Virus record (IMG/VR): IMGVR_UViG_3300019776_000305
Coordinates: 1 to 24,513 of that record
Reading direction: 5' to 3' (one strand)
Length of the DNA: 24,513 nucleotides
From: a virus
Both the position numbers and the translations under genes were made by a program. The notes under the pieces were generated by a model, which worked only from the letters and a program-made list of their open reading frames with translations, made no database searches and was not told where the DNA came from. Shown here one piece after another: positions 2 through 11,141 of the stretch; positions within the stretch are counted from its first letter, which is position 1; each line of letters begins with the position of its first letter.

Positions 2-268
2 AGAGACAACATGCAATGTCAGTATTGCTCAAAAAGGCTTAACTCAGAAGAGCATAGCGTAGATCATATTATCCCGGTTTCTAGATTCCCGTCAAAGCAT
101 CACGCTAATACCTGGGAGAACATGGTAGCCTGCTGTAAGACATGCAACTACAAAAAACACAACAAAACTCCAGATGAGGCCGGTATGAAATTATTATCCA
201 GGCCAAAAAAACCTAGACGTTATCTAATTAGCGGATCAATTCCAAGGCAATGGGGAAATTATTTATGA
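2..268 (+). CDS. HNH homing-type endonuclease, 5' truncated by window edge
   Basis: Cuts DNA; phage free-standing HNH enzymes usually act as homing nucleases or packaging-associated nickases. The reading frame is open back to the first base, and the codons before the ATG at 11 read R-D-N, which fits the usual 'RDN-x-CQYC' entry of phage HNH proteins. The ATG at 11 is therefore probably internal and the gene starts outside the window. Visible are a first CxxC (QYC region), the DHIIPVSR core with catalytic Asp-His, a WEN segment, a second CxxC (CCKTC) and the downstream N/H-rich helix (NYKKHNK), which together form the zinc-supported beta-beta-alpha fold. The TPDEAGMKLL and RPKKP tail is common in phage members. 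It ends with an ATGA overlap into the next nuclease-like gene. Family is confident; biological role is inferred. Confidence 0.9.
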   Translation, partial: RDNMQCQYCSKRLNSEEHSVDHIIPVSRFPSKHHANTWENMVACCKTCNYKKHNKTPDEAGMKLLSRPKKPRRYLISGSIPRQWGNYL

Positions 269-768
269 TTATAAAGTTTAATGACGAACAAATAGCGTTT
301 GCCGTTGATCTTGCAAAAAAAAGGCACGAAGCAAAGTCTATGGCTTTTAGAAATTCTAATATCTATATGAGGGAAAAAAGTAGCTATACACTTGAAAAGG
401 AATATATGCCGCACTTTGTTGGTATAATTGGTGAATTAGCTTGGTCTATCTATTCAGGTAATATAATAGACGAGAGAATCTATAAAGTGCGCGACAATGG
501 AGAAGATTTTTCAGGAGTGGAAGTAAAGACTATTACCTACTTTGGCGACGGAGAGCCTGAATTAAAAATTAAACAAGATGAATTCTTTAAAAAATCTCCA
601 GATACTTATGTTCTTGTTAGGTATGATGAAAGTAAAAAAGAAGCAGAAATTCTTGGCAGCATCTCAAGAGATAAGTTTGATAAATTAAAGAAATCAAAAA
701 GATACGGAAAATATAATCCAAACAATTTTGTTGTTCCAGCCTCTCTATTGGATAGGGTTGCTGGCTAA
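265..768 (+). CDS. PD-(D/E)XK nuclease-like protein
   Basis: 167 residues. The pattern suggests a restriction-endonuclease-like fold: G-E at 56-57 in a helix (GIIGELAW), an acidic turn at 77-81 (DNGED), and the E-V-K triad at 86-88 (GVEVKT), which would be the metal-binding D...ExK site. I chose the ATG at 265 because it overlaps the upstream stop as ATGA and has GGGGA at 252-256 eight bases upstream. The ATG at 250 lacks such a site. It directly follows an HNH nuclease, so the two may form a DNA-processing pair. It could be a degradative or restriction-like nuclease, or an inactive relative; the substrate cannot be told from sequence. No membrane segment is seen. Confidence 0.6.
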   Translation: MIIKFNDEQIAFAVDLAKKRHEAKSMAFRNSNIYMREKSSYTLEKEYMPHFVGIIGELAWSIYSGNIIDERIYKVRDNGEDFSGVEVKTITYFGDGEPELKIKQDEFFKKSPDTYVLVRYDESKKEAEILGSISRDKFDKLKKSKRYGKYNPNNFVVPASLLDRVAG

Positions 769-774
769 TATAAT
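769..774 (+). promoter_or_regulatory. Candidate -10 box (TATAAT) upstream of structured RNA
   Basis: A perfect TATAAT lies just after the stop of the nuclease-like gene. The -35 match is poor: TTGGAT at 748-753 with a 15-base spacer. A start about 7 bases downstream would fall near 781, where the possible closing stem of the structured region begins. Weak alone; positional agreement raises it. Confidence 0.4.
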
Positions 775-779
775 ACATA

Positions 780-1143
780 CTAAGATACCGATCAGCTTAG
801 ACCTTGGCTAAAAAAGGGCGTCGGGGCTTGTGCTTGCACAATCTCAGGTTTTCACCTTTATCCATGAGAGGTTTAATCGAAATCGCAGGCAGAGGCAATA
901 GTCGCTGTAGAATCTAGGCCGGTCAGGTAGCCAGACCTGACATTAGACTTTATGAGTCGGACCACGTTTGGCCTCGCAAGCCATGCCGTTTGACAAAAAT
1001 TTTTAGAGAAAATCTGAGCTATGCTGTAGAGCAACTCAGTGGGTCATGGGAGAAATCCTAATTATCTAAAGATTCAGTCAGGATTCTAACTGAAGTAGCT
1101 TAGTGGTGAGGGTAAGATGACCCTAAAAACTAGCGGTACGTAG
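780..1143 (+). ncRNA. Candidate highly structured non-coding RNA (unassigned family)
   Basis: No credible reading frame fills this stretch, and 781-960 is about 48% G+C, clearly above the A+T-rich genes around it. Local hairpins seen by eye: 828-832/837-841 (loop CTTG), 843-849 with 854-868 (CTCA-GGT...ACC...TGAG), 922-928/935-941 (perfect 7 bp), 946-949/955-958, 969-972/980-983, 1014-1018/1035-1039 with inner 1022-1025/1030-1033, and 1109-1113/1120-1124. An H-type pseudoknot is possible at 1051-1094. TACCG at 786-790 can pair with CGGTA at 1134-1138, and CTA at 780-782 with TAG at 1141-1143, closing the whole region. I see none of the signatures of tmRNA, RNase P, SRP RNA, 6S or group I/II introns. 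It may be a stand-alone RNA or a long structured leader of the gene at 1164; ends are approximate and the strand is inferred from the promoter and neighbours. Confidence 0.6.
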
Positions 1144-1163
1144 TTATAAAATAGGAGATGCGT

Positions 1164-1397
1164 ATGTATACATTATCAGACTTGTCGATGGCTTACAAGC
1201 ATTCAGTCGTTCTTAGTATTGAAAATTTAAAGAAATCAATTTCAAAAAAATCTAAGCAAATTAAAAAAATGGAAAAAGAGCTAAAATTTTTGGAAGATCA
1301 CTTGAAAAACGTAGATGATGCGCTATTATTAAGTAGACCAAAAGTAGTAAATGGCGGCGTAGCCATTTTTGCTACAAAAGAAGAGGACGGCGTCTAG
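1164..1397 (+). CDS. Small coiled-coil protein, unknown function
   Basis: 77 residues, not recognised. AGGAG at 1153-1157 sits six bases before the ATG at 1164, so this start is preferred over the ATG at 1158, which overlaps the ribosome site. Residues about 15-55 are a lysine/glutamate-rich heptad-like helix (SISKKSKQIKKMEKELKFL), strongly suggesting a coiled coil. The tail (VVNGGVAIFAT) is short and hydrophobic. It is the first gene after the structured RNA region, so that RNA may be its leader. Probably an oligomeric phage accessory protein; no enzymatic motif is seen. Confidence 0.7.
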   Translation: MYTLSDLSMAYKHSVVLSIENLKKSISKKSKQIKKMEKELKFLEDHLKNVDDALLLSRPKVVNGGVAIFATKEEDGV

Positions 1398-2322: not shown

Positions 2323-3390
2323 ATGATAAATTTAATGGCTCCAATAAATACACTTGGCTATGGAGTTGTTGGCACTAATATAGCTAGATCGTTAAACGAC
2401 TTTGGATACTCTCTATTTCCAATCGGCAATTTAGAATGGCAATCTGAACTTGATGGAGCCGCCATTAAAAGTGGAATCTCTAGAGCTGCTATGCATAATA
2501 AAAGCCATCCATCTGTAAAGATTTACCATCAATTTGATCTATCTGTGTTCCCGATGGGAAGTAGATATATAGGTTTTCCAATTTTTGAGCTTGATGATTT
2601 TTCAGAAAGAGAGAAGTGGCATCTAAAAAACGTAGACAAGCTTTTTGTATGCTCTGAGTGGGCTAAAAGCGTCATTGAGTCATCTGTTAACAATCATCCA
2701 GAGATATTTGTAGTGCCTCTTGGAGTAGATGGAAATATATTCTTTCCTGAGTCTTATAACTCTTGGAATATAAACAGTTTTAAAAATGAAAAAACGATAT
2801 TTTTTAACTGTGGCAAATGGGAAAAAAGAAAAGGTCATGATATTCTATGCGAAGCATTTAAAGCGGCCTTTGAAGACTCTGACGAGGTTGAGCTATGGAT
2901 GATGAATTCCAATCCCTTTCTATCATCCGATCAAACTTTAGAGTGGCATAATAAGTATAAGATGACAAACGTCAAAATCTTAGACAGAGCTAGGACTCAA
3001 TTTGATTTAGCAAATATAATGAGAGCTGTTGACTGTGGGGTATTTCCATCAAGAGCTGAGGGGTGGAATCTTGAAGCTCTTGAGCTAATGAGTTGTGGCA
3101 AGTCAGTTATTATAACAGATTATTCAGCCCATAAAGAATTTTGCAATTCTAATAATAGTCTACTAATAGAAATAGATGAACTAGAATCTGCTAATGATGG
3201 AATCTGGTTTCATGGTCAGGGAAGATGGGCAAAATTTGGTAAAAATCAATTTGACAATTTGGTTAATCATCTTAGAATGTTTCATAGCAGAAGAAAGGAG
3301 GTCGGAGTAGTAATAAATACTGCCGGACTTGAAACGGCTTGTGAATACACATGGAAAAATTCAGCTAGAAAGGTTTTAGAATATGCTTAA
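2323..3390 (+). CDS. Glycosyltransferase, GT-B fold (GT4-like)
   Basis: 355 residues, close to the usual size of group 1 glycosyltransferases. The N-terminal half opens with a glycine-rich segment (NTLGYGVVGTNIARSL) typical of the acceptor-binding Rossmann domain. The C-terminal half has the donor-binding domain: FNCGKWEKRKGHDIL (the sugar-phosphate binding 'G-x-x-x-x-KG' region) and the E-x7-E motif in AEGWNLEALELMSCGK near residues 246-261. It would transfer a sugar from a nucleotide-sugar. In phages such enzymes decorate DNA, virion proteins or host surface glycans; which applies here is not visible. AAGGAAA precedes the ATG. It overlaps the next gene by eight bases. Confidence 0.88.
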   Translation: MINLMAPINTLGYGVVGTNIARSLNDFGYSLFPIGNLEWQSELDGAAIKSGISRAAMHNKSHPSVKIYHQFDLSVFPMGSRYIGFPIFELDDFSEREKWHLKNVDKLFVCSEWAKSVIESSVNNHPEIFVVPLGVDGNIFFPESYNSWNINSFKNEKTIFFNCGKWEKRKGHDILCEAFKAAFEDSDEVELWMMNSNPFLSSDQTLEWHNKYKMTNVKILDRARTQFDLANIMRAVDCGVFPSRAEGWNLEALELMSCGKSVIITDYSAHKEFCNSNNSLLIEIDELESANDGIWFHGQGRWAKFGKNQFDNLVNHLRMFHSRRKEVGVVINTAGLETACEYTWKNSARKVLEYA

Positions 3391-3835
3391 AAAAATGATG
3401 GGATTATTTAAGATAAACAGAGAAGTTCGAGCTAATGGAGATAGTAATATTGAAGTCAATACTACACCTGAACCGTGGAGTATGCCAGAACAGCTAGAGC
3501 CAGTAGCTAAAGAAAATAGTCCAGACTTAGATAGATTTTTTGAACTTAATTTTTCAATAGAAGGGGATGACATTGTAACTGGAATAAGGTTAGATTCTAT
3601 GTCGGATGAAAGCATAGAAAAAGTTGGAATATTTTTCGGTAGGCTATATAGCATAAATATGCTGAATGATACTTTCGCATTATTGAAAGAAGAGCTTGAT
3701 AAAATTGACGGTTCTTTATTTATAAGAATTTGCAAAATAGCTTTGTCGGTAGCTGATGAAGCTTCTAGATCTAGAGATGCTATTGGTAGTGAAGAATTAG
3801 TTATAACACCATCGGAGTTTTTTCAAGATGAATAG
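3383..3835 (+). CDS. Acidic hypothetical protein
   Basis: 150 residues, not recognised. It starts inside the end of the glycosyltransferase gene, with AAAGG about nine bases upstream, implying translational coupling. The N-terminal ~45 residues look flexible (Asn/Thr/Pro/Glu-rich), and residues about 48-125 look like a mixed or mostly helical folded domain rich in Asp/Glu (DRFFELNFSIEGDDIVTGIR, LLKEELDKIDG). No membrane segment, no cysteine cluster, no P-loop. It overlaps the next gene by eight bases. Possibly a virion-associated or assembly protein, given the neighbours downstream, but that is a guess. Confidence 0.75.
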   Translation: MLKKMMGLFKINREVRANGDSNIEVNTTPEPWSMPEQLEPVAKENSPDLDRFFELNFSIEGDDIVTGIRLDSMSDESIEKVGIFFGRLYSINMLNDTFALLKEELDKIDGSLFIRICKIALSVADEASRSRDAIGSEELVITPSEFFQDE

Positions 3836-4268
3836 TAAAAAAATAGGATGGCAAAAATATGAAGATGCTATTGAAAAGCAATTAAAATCTCCAATAACTA
3901 GAATGTTTATGGACGCGGAAAGAAATTCAATAAATAAATCATTAGATGAATATGAAACTGGCGACGAAGATGAAACTTATGACGACAATGATTATGCGTC
4001 TGAGATGCCTAGAGCTGTAGCCGTATCAGAATCATTAGTGCAAGAGGCATTTGTTGCCGCCAATTTTGATTGCTGGATTGGTCATACCAACTTTGACATA
4101 ACTAAATCTGTTCAAAATACATTACAAAAGATTCCAGGTATCGAAATTTTAAAAGTAAACTCTAGATATAGGTTCTTTATTGGTATTGGAAAATTGTTTT
4201 CCTCAAGAGAAGTTAAGAAAAACATAGAATCAGAACTTGTAACAAGTGAAATGGAGATAGATAATTGA
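3828..4268 (+). CDS. Conserved phage-type protein, unknown function
   Basis: 146 residues. An N-terminal helical segment is followed by a strongly acidic linker at about 38-58 (DEYETGDEDETYDDND) and a folded C-terminal domain at about 66-135 containing CWIGHTNFDITKSVQ and GIEILKVNSRYRFFIGIGKL. That segment looks like a small alpha/beta domain that I believe recurs in proteins of other large phages, but I cannot name a function. It overlaps both neighbours, upstream by eight bases and downstream by four (TTGA), so it is translated as part of the same operon. No catalytic motif is evident. Confidence 0.75.
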   Translation: MNSKKIGWQKYEDAIEKQLKSPITRMFMDAERNSINKSLDEYETGDEDETYDDNDYASEMPRAVAVSESLVQEAFVAANFDCWIGHTNFDITKSVQNTLQKIPGIEILKVNSRYRFFIGIGKLFSSREVKKNIESELVTSEMEIDN

Positions 4269-4744
4269 ATAACGTTGACTCAAAAATTGAAAAAGAATAC
4301 ATTAAGATTGGTAAAAAGCTTGCAATAAGATATCGACAGTATTTATCCAAGGAAGATATAGAAAGATGTATTAATATAGCTTATTGGAAGGTTCAAAAAT
4401 TTTTCTCAGAAAAGCATGGAACAAAAACGACTTCATATTTTTATAATATTATTAATAACGAGTTTAGAAGTATAAGAAACTCATTTTTAAGAGATTATGA
4501 TAAAAAATCAAGGCTTAAAAAGGGTTATCTTAATCTTAAAAAAGTTAATAATGGAGATTCAGGCGAGGTTGATTTTATGGATTTGATTGAGATATGCGGC
4601 AAGGATAAAGGATTAATTTATAGCAAGTTTGCACTTGGTAAATCCATATCGGAAATTTCCAAAGAATTTAATATGTCAGAGGCGCTTATTAGGTCTAAAA
4701 TAAAGAAAAATTTATCCAAATTAAAGAGAGAGCTTTCTAAGTAA
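4265..4744 (+). CDS. Sigma70-family-like transcription factor (TTG start)
   Basis: 159 residues. The N-terminal half resembles sigma region 2 (about 15-75: a helical segment with YLSKEDIERCINIAYWKVQ and TSYFYNIINNEFRSIRN). The C-terminal half resembles sigma region 4, a helix-turn-helix (about 120-158: GKSISEISKEFNMSEALIRS). It would direct host RNA polymerase to phage promoters, as phage late sigma factors do. The start is TTG at 4265, overlapping the previous stop as TTGA, with TGGAG about eight bases upstream; no in-frame ATG occurs near. The rare start suggests limited expression. Just downstream come an inverted repeat and a probable structural gene, a plausible target. It could instead be a non-sigma DNA-binding protein with the same fold. 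Confidence 0.72.
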   Translation: MNNVDSKIEKEYIKIGKKLAIRYRQYLSKEDIERCINIAYWKVQKFFSEKHGTKTTSYFYNIINNEFRSIRNSFLRDYDKKSRLKKGYLNLKKVNNGDSGEVDFMDLIEICGKDKGLIYSKFALGKSISEISKEFNMSEALIRSKIKKNLSKLKRELSK

Positions 4745-8548: not shown

Positions 8549-8869
8549 ATGAGAAAGTTAACACCTGAAGACTTATTACATTTTAATATTAAAATCGGAG
8601 ATTCTTTTATAAAAGAAGAAGAAAGATCAATTGCAAGAAATGCGCTCGAACTTGCCATCCAGTGGGCTACAATAGCTAGTGAAGATAATACTAACTCTCC
8701 TAAAACCAGGAGTCAAGCTCTTAAAGAGTGCAAGAAGTATATATCCGAAAATATTAAACGACAGAAGTACGGAAATGTTTTTGTTAGTATTTTAATATCA
8801 CTAGCATTGAAATTAATAATTAATTATGTGGCTAATTTGATTATAGAAAGGCTTTTTGCAAATGACTAA
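8549..8869 (+). CDS. Tail-anchored small membrane protein
   Basis: 106 residues, not recognised. The first ~75 residues are soluble, charged and helical (TPEDLLHFNIKIG, SIARNALELAIQWATIASED). Residues about 77-101 form one hydrophobic helix (VFVSILISLALKLIINYVANLIIERLF), giving a C-terminal anchor with the domain probably in the cytoplasm. AGGAGA precedes the ATG at 8549. It ends inside the start of the reductase gene (eight-base overlap). As the last member of the membrane cassette it may interact with the holin-like or PAS proteins; this is inference from order only. Confidence 0.72.
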   Translation: MRKLTPEDLLHFNIKIGDSFIKEEERSIARNALELAIQWATIASEDNTNSPKTRSQALKECKKYISENIKRQKYGNVFVSILISLALKLIINYVANLIIERLFAND

Positions 8870-11141
8870 GCTTGACAAGCAATTTTTTGGTAAAATCTTT
8901 TTGTCGGATCTTAAGCTTTATTCGGATTATTTTAAGTGGGATGACGAAAAGGGTAGATATGAAAACTGGAGCGAGGCTTGTGAAGATATAGTAAATGGCC
9001 ATAAGTTGAAATATCAAAACCAAGAACTAGATAACTATTTAGAAAATGTTCTTGATTCTCTTAAATGTCAGAGGATTTTAGCGTCTCAGAGAAATCTTCA
9101 ATTTAGGCATAAAAATCTTGCTCAGCATAATGCAAAAATTTTTAACTGTACAGTTTTGCATTTATGCACACCAGAATCTTTTCAGAGAATATTTTATCTA
9201 GCGCTTTGCGGATGCGGCGTCGGCGTTTCTCTTTTAAAGCCATTCGTAAATTGCTTGCCAACAATTTCAAAAAGATCTAAAGGCACTTTGACCCATCTAG
9301 TCGAAGACTCTATTGAGGGATGGGCCGACGCTTTAGGAGCGTTGATGTCTTCATACTTTGAGCAAAATTCACCTATGCCAGAATATTCTGGATATGAAAT
9401 AAAATTTGATTTTAGCAAGATACGGCAAAAGGGAAGTTATATTAGTGGTGGATATAAAGCCCCTGGTCCAGATGGTTTAAAATCATCTTTAGAAAATATC
9501 GAAAAGAAGATAGAAAATCATCTTCAATCAAGTAATAAGCTAAGTACAGTTTTATGCTTTGACATTATATGTCATTCATCTGACGCTGTTCTGAGCGGAG
9601 GCGTTAGAAGGTCAGCTCTTAGTATGATATTAGATCCAAACGATGAAGATATGATTATGGCTAAAACTGGATCATGGAGAGCTGATCATCCTCATAGAGC
9701 TAGATCTAATAATTCTGTTTTAATTCCTAGAAACTCTCAAGACAAGGAATTTTTTAACAAAATAGTAGAATTAAATAATGGCGATAACGATATAGGATTC
9801 GTATTTTGCAACACATGGTTTGACGTATTCAATCCGTGTTTTGAAATTGGGTTTACTCCAGTTAATACAACAAAAGAAGATGCCCCATTAAGCGAAATAA
9901 AGTATTCAGATCTTGAAGAATGGACTAGGTCTAATATAGATAAGTTTGGCGTCCAAATGTGCAATCTCAATGAAATTAATGCTGAGAAATGCGAAACTGA
10001 AGAAGAATTTATTAGAGCTTGTAGAGACTCTGCCGTACTTGGAACACTTCAGGCGGGCTATAACAATTTTCCATATCTTGGGAAAACAACTGAAGATTTA
10101 GTAAAACGAGAAGCTTTGCTTGGAGTGTCTATTACTGGATGGATGAATAATCCAAAACTTTTTGATCCGGAGCTACTTAGAAAGGGAGCGAAAGAAGTAA
10201 TTCAAACAAATGAAAAAGTTTCTAAAATTATAGGTATAAACCCAGCGGCTAGAACAACATGTGTTAAGCCATCTGGAAATGCAAGCGTAGTTCTTGGCAC
10301 TGCGTCTGGAATACATCCAGAACATTCTGAACGATATTTTAGAATAATGCAGTTAAATAAAAATTCTGATACTGCAATTTGGATCTCTCAACATATGCCA
10401 TTTTTGCTTGAAAATAGCGTTTGGAGCGCTAATAATACAGACTATGTTGTTTTCGTGCCCATAATAAATCCAAAAAACGGATTATTTAAAAAAGATATGA
10501 AGGGCGTAAAGCATCTGGAAATAATTAAAAACGTTCAACAGAATTGGATCAATCCTGGAACTGTTAAAGAAAGAGGAATATCCAATTTAACTACGCATAA
10601 TTGCTCATGCACTGTGATTATTGATAATAGAGAAGAAATTATAAATTATATCTGGGATAACAGAAAAGACTTTACGGCTATTAGTTTTATATCTGACTAT
10701 GGAGATAAAGACTTCAATCAAGCTCCGTTTACATCTGTTCTATCTGCTGAAGAAATATATGAAGAATATGGTAAAGGTTCATTATTTGCATCTGGCTTAA
10801 TAGTAGACGGTTTACATTATTTTAATAATAATTTATGGGAAGCTTGTGACTCTGTTTTGAATAAAGAACTTCCAGTTGTTGGAACTAGAGAGCAAGTAAT
10901 GCTTAAAAAGTATTGGATAAAGAGAGTCAAGCAATTTGCTAAAAATTATTTTAAAAATGATGTAACAAAGACCGTTTATTGCCTCAAAGACGTTCATCTT
11001 TGTCATAAGTGGGAGTCTATATTAAGGCAAATGAAGCCGGTAAACTTTGGAGAAATTCTTAAGAAGCCATCATATAAGGACATATCAGAATTCGCCGCAA
11101 TGAGTTGTAGCGGCGGTTCTTGTGAAATAACAAAGATATAA
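8862..11141 (+). CDS. nrdJ: Adenosylcobalamin-dependent (class II) ribonucleoside-triphosphate reductase
   Basis: 759 residues, the size of monomeric class II reductases. It reduces ribonucleotides to deoxyribonucleotides using vitamin B12-coenzyme to create a thiyl radical. Seen in order: a redox Cys near 96 (FNCTVLHL), a glycine-rich segment (CGCGVGVSLL), GGVRRSA at about 246-252, NPCFEI at 324-329 with the probable radical Cys326 and Glu328, QMCNLNEI with the partner redox Cys, a P-S-G-N-A-S-V-V-L-G-T loop, and a C-terminal CSGGSC pair that would re-reduce the active site. No N-terminal ATP cone is apparent. The ATG at 8862 is preferred to the TTG at 8856. Because the enzyme needs no oxygen or small subunit, no nrdB is expected; host cobalamin is implied. 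Confidence 0.92.
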   Translation: MTKLDKQFFGKIFLSDLKLYSDYFKWDDEKGRYENWSEACEDIVNGHKLKYQNQELDNYLENVLDSLKCQRILASQRNLQFRHKNLAQHNAKIFNCTVLHLCTPESFQRIFYLALCGCGVGVSLLKPFVNCLPTISKRSKGTLTHLVEDSIEGWADALGALMSSYFEQNSPMPEYSGYEIKFDFSKIRQKGSYISGGYKAPGPDGLKSSLENIEKKIENHLQSSNKLSTVLCFDIICHSSDAVLSGGVRRSALSMILDPNDEDMIMAKTGSWRADHPHRARSNNSVLIPRNSQDKEFFNKIVELNNGDNDIGFVFCNTWFDVFNPCFEIGFTPVNTTKEDAPLSEIKYSDLEEWTRSNIDKFGVQMCNLNEINAEKCETEEEFIRACRDSAVLGTLQAGYNNFPYLGKTTEDLVKREALLGVSITGWMNNPKLFDPELLRKGAKEVIQTNEKVSKIIGINPAARTTCVKPSGNASVVLGTASGIHPEHSERYFRIMQLNKNSDTAIWISQHMPFLLENSVWSANNTDYVVFVPIINPKNGLFKKDMKGVKHLEIIKNVQQNWINPGTVKERGISNLTTHNCSCTVIIDNREEIINYIWDNRKDFTAISFISDYGDKDFNQAPFTSVLSAEEIYEEYGKGSLFASGLIVDGLHYFNNNLWEACDSVLNKELPVVGTREQVMLKKYWIKRVKQFAKNYFKNDVTKTVYCLKDVHLCHKWESILRQMKPVNFGEILKKPSYKDISEFAAMSCSGGSCEITKI

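Follow-up and report, generated by a model that had tools for sequence, protein, structure and literature searches.

Introduction

The leader of phage T4 gene 32 is a pseudoknotted RNA that is bound by SSB, and ROOL RNAs are roughly 580 nt in length. GOLLD and ROOL are large intricate noncoding RNAs (ncRNAs) that are encoded by phages, contain pseudoknots and are often found near tRNA genes (PMC12286853). The wider kind, that of large phage ncRNAs, has precedents. We describe here a conserved, structured and pseudoknotted RNA that lies outside every Rfam family and most of whose helices are proven by covariation. Judged against Rfam, it is a new RNA class.

GOLLD and ROOL offer the closest comparison for how this RNA might work, and it belongs to neither by sequence or by model; the Rfam models of GOLLD and ROOL matched neither the window (the whole 24.5 kb virus record analysed here) nor the member loci that were scanned. 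Like them, the RNA is encoded by phages and is pseudoknotted, and in several members tRNA genes are near it, a likeness that serves as a works-like comparison only. It differs in its length, about 365 nt as against more than 800 nt for many GOLLD members, and in its sequence and helices (PMC12286853).

The gap and its neighbouring genes

The genes of the window are tightly packed. By its list of ORFs the longest gap by far is one of 389 nt (769–1157), bounded by the stop codon (766–768) of an ORF of 172 amino acids and by the next ORF, and its G+C content is about 0.445 compared with roughly 0.33–0.36 around it. A sequence-only reading of this DNA had drawn attention to a gene-free gap in a packed genome, to the locally raised G+C content and to a TATAAT just upstream of a candidate RNA, and each of these observations holds. 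The ends of the ncRNA (Table 1) were placed from conservation and the −10 box.

The folding energy is only moderately unusual, with a z value of −2.6 for the plus strand and −3.1 for the minus strand. With both strands alike it was rejected as proof of an RNA and, since it does not decide the matter, a comparison of homologues was needed. A protein-coding gene was also rejected, there being several stops in each of the three forward frames in every member and no open frame conserved across them.

The sequence-only reading placed two nuclease genes upstream of the gap. The HNH gene is confirmed, as an ORF that ends soon after the HNH; the second gene, of a family that we call c0, shows only a PD-(D/E)XK-like motif with the conserved pattern D-x4-E-x-K. 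Family c0 comprises the window gene and 31 loci, in phages with or without the RNA. It has no sequence match in Pfam or the PDB, and a fold search gave no significant match, the best being the N-terminal domain of the restriction enzyme Eco15I (probability 0.21).

Downstream of the RNA the usual order is c4 (a small coiled-coil gene), c1 (106 amino acids) and SSB, with c4 next after the RNA in nearly every member other than the window. In L164 and L168 (L numbers denote loci) c4 is present, with c1 and SSB not close by. The coiled-coil gene of the window matches the c4 profile with an i-E of 9e-4 in a single-sequence search, a value that coiled-coil composition alone could produce. The c1 protein of the window is 45% identical to its nearest relative.

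Table 1. Features of the RNA locus, in window coordinates.
Feature	Position	Strand	Evidence or remarks
HNH endonuclease ORF	2–268		Cut by window edge; HNH weakly like IscB/Cas9 and retron-associated nucleases
Upstream gene, family c0	250–768	+	172 amino acids, start probably 265; PD-(D/E)XK-like motif
TATAAT −10 box	769–774	+	Directly after upstream stop codon, at RNA 5' end
Structured ncRNA	781–1145	+	nhmmer homologues, core model, covariation
P1, 5' hairpin	CUAAG 780–784 / CUUAG 796–800	+	Several members; own versus cross-species duplex test not significant; weakly supported
P2	824–828/841–845	+	Two-sided changes in 4 of 5 pairs
P3, hairpin	AGGU 846–849 / ACCU 854–857	+	Nearly invariant, 95% paired
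P4	889–894/903–908	+	Two-sided changes in 6 of 6 pairs
P5	911–915/1081–1085	+	Long-range, closes central domain; two-sided changes in 5 of 5 pairs
P6, hairpin	924–928/935–939	+	100% paired; two-sided changes in 3 pairs
P7, variable hairpin	946–950/954–958	+	Own duplex −5.4, cross-species −1.7 kcal/mol
P8, hairpin	969–972/980–983	+	Loop with UC[A/G]CA; two-sided changes in 4 pairs
P9	991–994/1077–1080 and 998–1007/1065–1074	+	Duplex energy
P10, hairpin	1013–1018/1035–1040	+	97.8% paired; two-sided changes in 4 pairs
P10b, inside P10	1022–1025/1030–1033	+	100% paired; two-sided changes in 3 pairs
P11	GGGUCAU 1041–1047 / AUGACCC 1117–1123	+	100% paired in 15 members; two-sided changes in 3 pairs
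P12	ACCAC 961–965 / GUGGU 1103–1107	+	Second crossing helix, crosses P5
Small coiled-coil gene	1158–1397	+	Start 1158 or 1164; weakly similar to c4

Homologues of the RNA

Loci were fetched from IMG/VR around relatives of two window genes, a glycosyltransferase gene (2323–3390) and a reductase (8856–11141). The latter is a ribonucleotide reductase, with a PHROG match and a weak match to a B12-dependent insertion domain, and is 58–72% identical to copies in many IMG/VR contigs. The window protein of 4265–4744 shows weak similarity to factors of the sigma-70 family (NCBIfam E of 9e-5, PHROG E of 8e-6), and in many relatives a gene like it stands after that for the glycosyltransferase.

With the window sequence alone, nhmmer found the RNA in four contigs at the matching place (E of 3e-17 to 3e-10). 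Further members came from IMG/VR motif scans built on the growing alignment and from a scan with the neighbouring protein family. In total 18 IMG/VR contigs besides the window carry a homologue at the same locus, which makes 19 with the window, some near-identical; 15 distinct members were aligned. The pattern hits L181, L187, L193, L195 and L226–L231 were taken as chance; L227, as the contig of L211, is not counted among them.

The RNA family is conserved in a group of uncultivated phages and is absent from the databases searched. The window RNA region gave no blastn match in 50 697 phage records, the other members found no relative in those records, and a search of phage records with c0 gave none either. 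A specific pattern matched twice in 84 980 genomes, both times without the rest of the RNA. The core covariance model (R1, 131 positions) scores 116.8 bits on the window, which is among its training sequences. Run over related phage DNA (about 2 Mb), it found the members and nothing comparable elsewhere, and 28 records that lack the RNA at the locus likewise gave nothing comparable. The strongest non-member matches are either short and weak or are loci that the motif scan had brought in. The search for diverged copies elsewhere in relatives that lack the RNA gave nothing convincing, only two weak and short hits (37 and 34 positions).

Covariation and the fold

In the alignment of 15 members, nine helices (P2–P6, P8, P10, P10b and P11) account for 47 pairs, 93.6% formed. 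Two-sided changes are seen in 32 pairs and 127 cells; shuffles gave 40 ± 6 cells and slid structures 8–19. Because relatedness can mimic covariation, a tree-preserving simulation was run as a control for kinship, with alignments simulated along the inferred tree and substitutions re-dealt among the columns. Under this null the fixed structure gave 24 ± 5 cells, with a maximum of 38 in 100, compared with the real 127. An unguided stem finder returned best scores of 26, 19, 18 and 16 on the real alignment against null maxima of 16, 10, 8 and 7. The top covarying pair, 913–1083, occurs as UA, CG or GC, is paired in 15 of 15 members and had no equal in 60 tree-null alignments. With 15 sequences, the pairwise tree-null E-values are strong for few pairs only and the case therefore rests on the helix-level tests. 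Helix cells contain 58 G–U combinations against a single A–C, which identifies the plus strand as the folded molecule.

The near-invariance of P3 leaves it with no two-sided change and hence no covariation test. The loop of P6 is near-invariant, A[G/A]CCA[A/G], and P7 is missing in some members. P9 was tested by duplex energy because it is too variable for column counting: the mean for a member's own duplex is −11.7 kcal/mol compared with −4.8 kcal/mol across species, and the own duplex is best or in the top three in 15 of 15 members.

P11, of 7 bp, links the 3' tail with the inside of the central domain and crosses P5 and P9, giving a pseudoknotted fold. Its 5' strand reads GGGUCAU, GGGUGAA, GGGUCAA or GAGUCAU, each with a matching partner, the two strands changing in step in L164/L168, L166 and L194. 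The evidence for P12 is weaker than for P11. Its own duplexes beat permuted partners (29/5000, p about 0.006), most clearly in L197, L194 and the window, and L043 has no clear pairing.

Several other pairings were tried and not supported: a helix between the 3' segments C and E, a GGGCA–UGCC pairing and a contact of the P3 loop with the P10b loop. The sequence-only reading had also suggested that the RNA is closed by TACCG (786–790) with CGGTA (1134–1138) and by CTA with TAG; these pairs are present in the window and are not conserved (own duplex −3.6, cross-species −3.9).

Comparison with known RNA families

A search of the window against Rfam 15 gave nothing at the gathering thresholds and, at E ≤ 10, two spurious eukaryotic hits (E of 4.5–5.1). 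Ten member loci gave tRNAs only, and six loci searched at E ≤ 1 gave nothing over the RNA. Group I and II introns, RNase P, SRP, 6S and HEARO/omega-RNA resemble the RNA in size range and in having multiple helices, and none of them matched the window even at permissive thresholds. A self-splicing intron was rejected on the lack of a group I or II match in Rfam and on the position of the RNA between ORFs, with no gene interrupted; the HEARO/omega-RNA of IscB was set aside with no Rfam match and no adjacent iscB. The sequence-only reading had proposed an unassigned structured RNA, to be checked for an Rfam match and for covariation and conservation in related phages. Covariation and conservation are both strong among the 15 members, and neither the window nor, over the RNA, the scanned member loci gave a significant Rfam match.

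Transcription and the downstream operon

TATAAT stands upstream of the RNA in all 12 aligned members with intact upstream sequence and in L168; it is not present in L196 and L197, the most diverged pair. Directly upstream of the RNA in L197, where TATAAT is missing, there is a tRNA-like sequence (about 3535–3600) that ARAGORN did not call. The best −35 element in the window is weak (TTGGAT, spacer 15), which is why a promoter scan made no call at the −10 box there. The member records hold 26 exact matches to TTGACA-N15..19-TATAAT and none to a reversed control pattern, so that such promoters can be taken as real in these phages.

The sequence-only reading left a choice between a new phage RNA and a leader of the coiled-coil gene, and the evidence now leans to the former. 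The leader is the main rival to an independent ncRNA: the RNA would be a large cis-acting element of the c4–c1–SSB operon, placed between promoter and c4, that controls expression of the operon, either by binding SSB as the T4 gene 32 leader does or by P11 exchanging with other GGGUC pairings. The position of c4 behind the RNA in nearly all members fits such a role, as do the U-rich tracts before the ribosome-binding site in many members. In relatives that lack the RNA a TTGACA/TATAAT-type promoter of the operon's own often stands immediately ahead of c4, so that the RNA looks inserted between promoter and gene. Furthermore, in the window and most members the stretch from the RNA to the next gene contains neither a separate promoter nor a canonical terminator. 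As this gene has no visible promoter of its own in the window, co-transcription is probable there, and we consider it likely in the window and in members without a second promoter.

A leader would always lie upstream of the same gene and be transcribed with it, and this is not what the family shows. In L170 a perfect TTGACA-16-TATAAT lies between the RNA and c4; in L163 the RNA is followed by a terminator-like hairpin with a T-rich tail and by TTGAAA-16-TATAAT, and L002 has the same sequence after the RNA. In L194 the RNA stays and both neighbouring genes are replaced, neither c0 nor c4 being found adjoining it. L170, in which a separate promoter further down serves c4, shows the U-tract as well. 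Many relatives lack the RNA, and in them the operon works without it. On the c1 tree the presence of the RNA needs four changes, at least three of which are forced by well-supported branches, so that the RNA is lost or gained as a unit.

GGGUC can pair with an upstream GACCC as well as with the 3' AUGACCC, but a switch between the two was rejected, since the A–B pairing is not significant (312/5000); P12 and P11 together explain the four segments better, and a local C–D hairpin also scores (6/5000). The likeness to the T4 gene 32 leader is that of a pseudoknotted RNA upstream of an operon that holds SSB. The present RNA differs in being nearly ten times longer, in having SSB as the third gene, in being missing from many relatives with the same operon and in having second promoters downstream in some members. 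We regard the leader as doubtful, though to be taken seriously. That the RNA is a separate gene is well supported in L170, L163/L002 and L194 and likely across the family.

Other explanations

A highly derived transfer-messenger-like or ribosome-directed RNA, standing in for the permuted tmRNA found at the corresponding locus of a relative, is improbable. That relative, L075, lacks the RNA described here and has, ahead of the same c4–c1–SSB operon, a permuted (two-piece) tmRNA gene (L075:2883–3241; RF04321, E=1e-17) that also resembles alpha_tmRNA; tRNA-Gly and tRNA-Asp lie just upstream of this gene. The two RNAs are alike in being structured, of similar length and from aquatic phages (PMC9004378; RF04321). 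tRNA genes also occur on the fetched stretch of several members, mostly within about 1 kb of the RNA; ARAGORN found none in the window or on the other members. Against this, neither a tRNA-like domain (T-arm, acceptor stem) nor CCA was recognised in the RNA, ARAGORN found no tmRNA in the window, and covariance-model searches gave no tmRNA match in the window (E up to 10) or in six member loci (E up to 1). The same covariance-model search found the L075 tmRNA, which ARAGORN missed. The positions relative to the promoter differ too, the L075 tmRNA lying before the operon promoter and the present RNA after its own TATAAT.

A shade less probable still is the RNA component of an RNP with the c0 protein, or an RNA that guides an IscB-like HNH nuclease. 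In its favour, c0 is upstream of the RNA in all members with upstream sequence except L194, and the truncated HNH ORF weakly resembles the HNH of IscB/Cas9. As an obligatory partner c0 was rejected, because it occurs without the RNA in many phages and the RNA occurs without adjacent c0 in L194; in other members the HNH ORF was not recognised next to the RNA, and HEARO/omega-RNA gave no Rfam match. A conserved DNA-level element (a replication origin or R-loop site) would suit the promoter beside it and the replication genes nearby (SSB, UvsX, DnaB), but it is very improbable, for both the ratio of G–U to A–C and the covarying helices that cross each other require a single RNA strand that is folded.

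Function of the RNA

We prefer, with some reserve, an independent ncRNA, trans-acting or structural, made from its own sigma-70-type promoter, over a leader of the downstream operon. Transcription would start from such a promoter at the 5' end, and the RNA, once folded, would have a structural role or act in trans. Where a second promoter is lacking, it would be co-transcribed with the downstream genes and then either processed or left attached. The near-invariant loops of P6 (A[G/A]CCAA), P8 (UC[A/G]CA) and P10b (GNGG), together with the joining segments, may form a contact surface for a protein or another RNA, an idea drawn from conservation; two loop or segment pairings that were tried gave nothing.

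We favour the view that the RNA may be like GOLLD and ROOL in kind but unrelated to them. More tentatively, it is possible that it represents a new phage RNA machine, compact and doubly pseudoknotted, which would be expressed during infection and act on a host or phage component as an RNA-only assembly, an RNP or a ribozyme, with a standing like that of GOLLD and ROOL and a separate origin.

Large RNAs whose elaborate folds are conserved are rare. Of the classes that are understood, most serve basic tasks, namely catalysis, translation, sensing or scaffolding. With an alignment, a secondary structure and a covariance model in hand, the family is directly testable. The RNA has been kept while the phage proteins drifted far apart, and elsewhere it has been lost as a whole; this pattern points to an accessory function in infection that is under selection.
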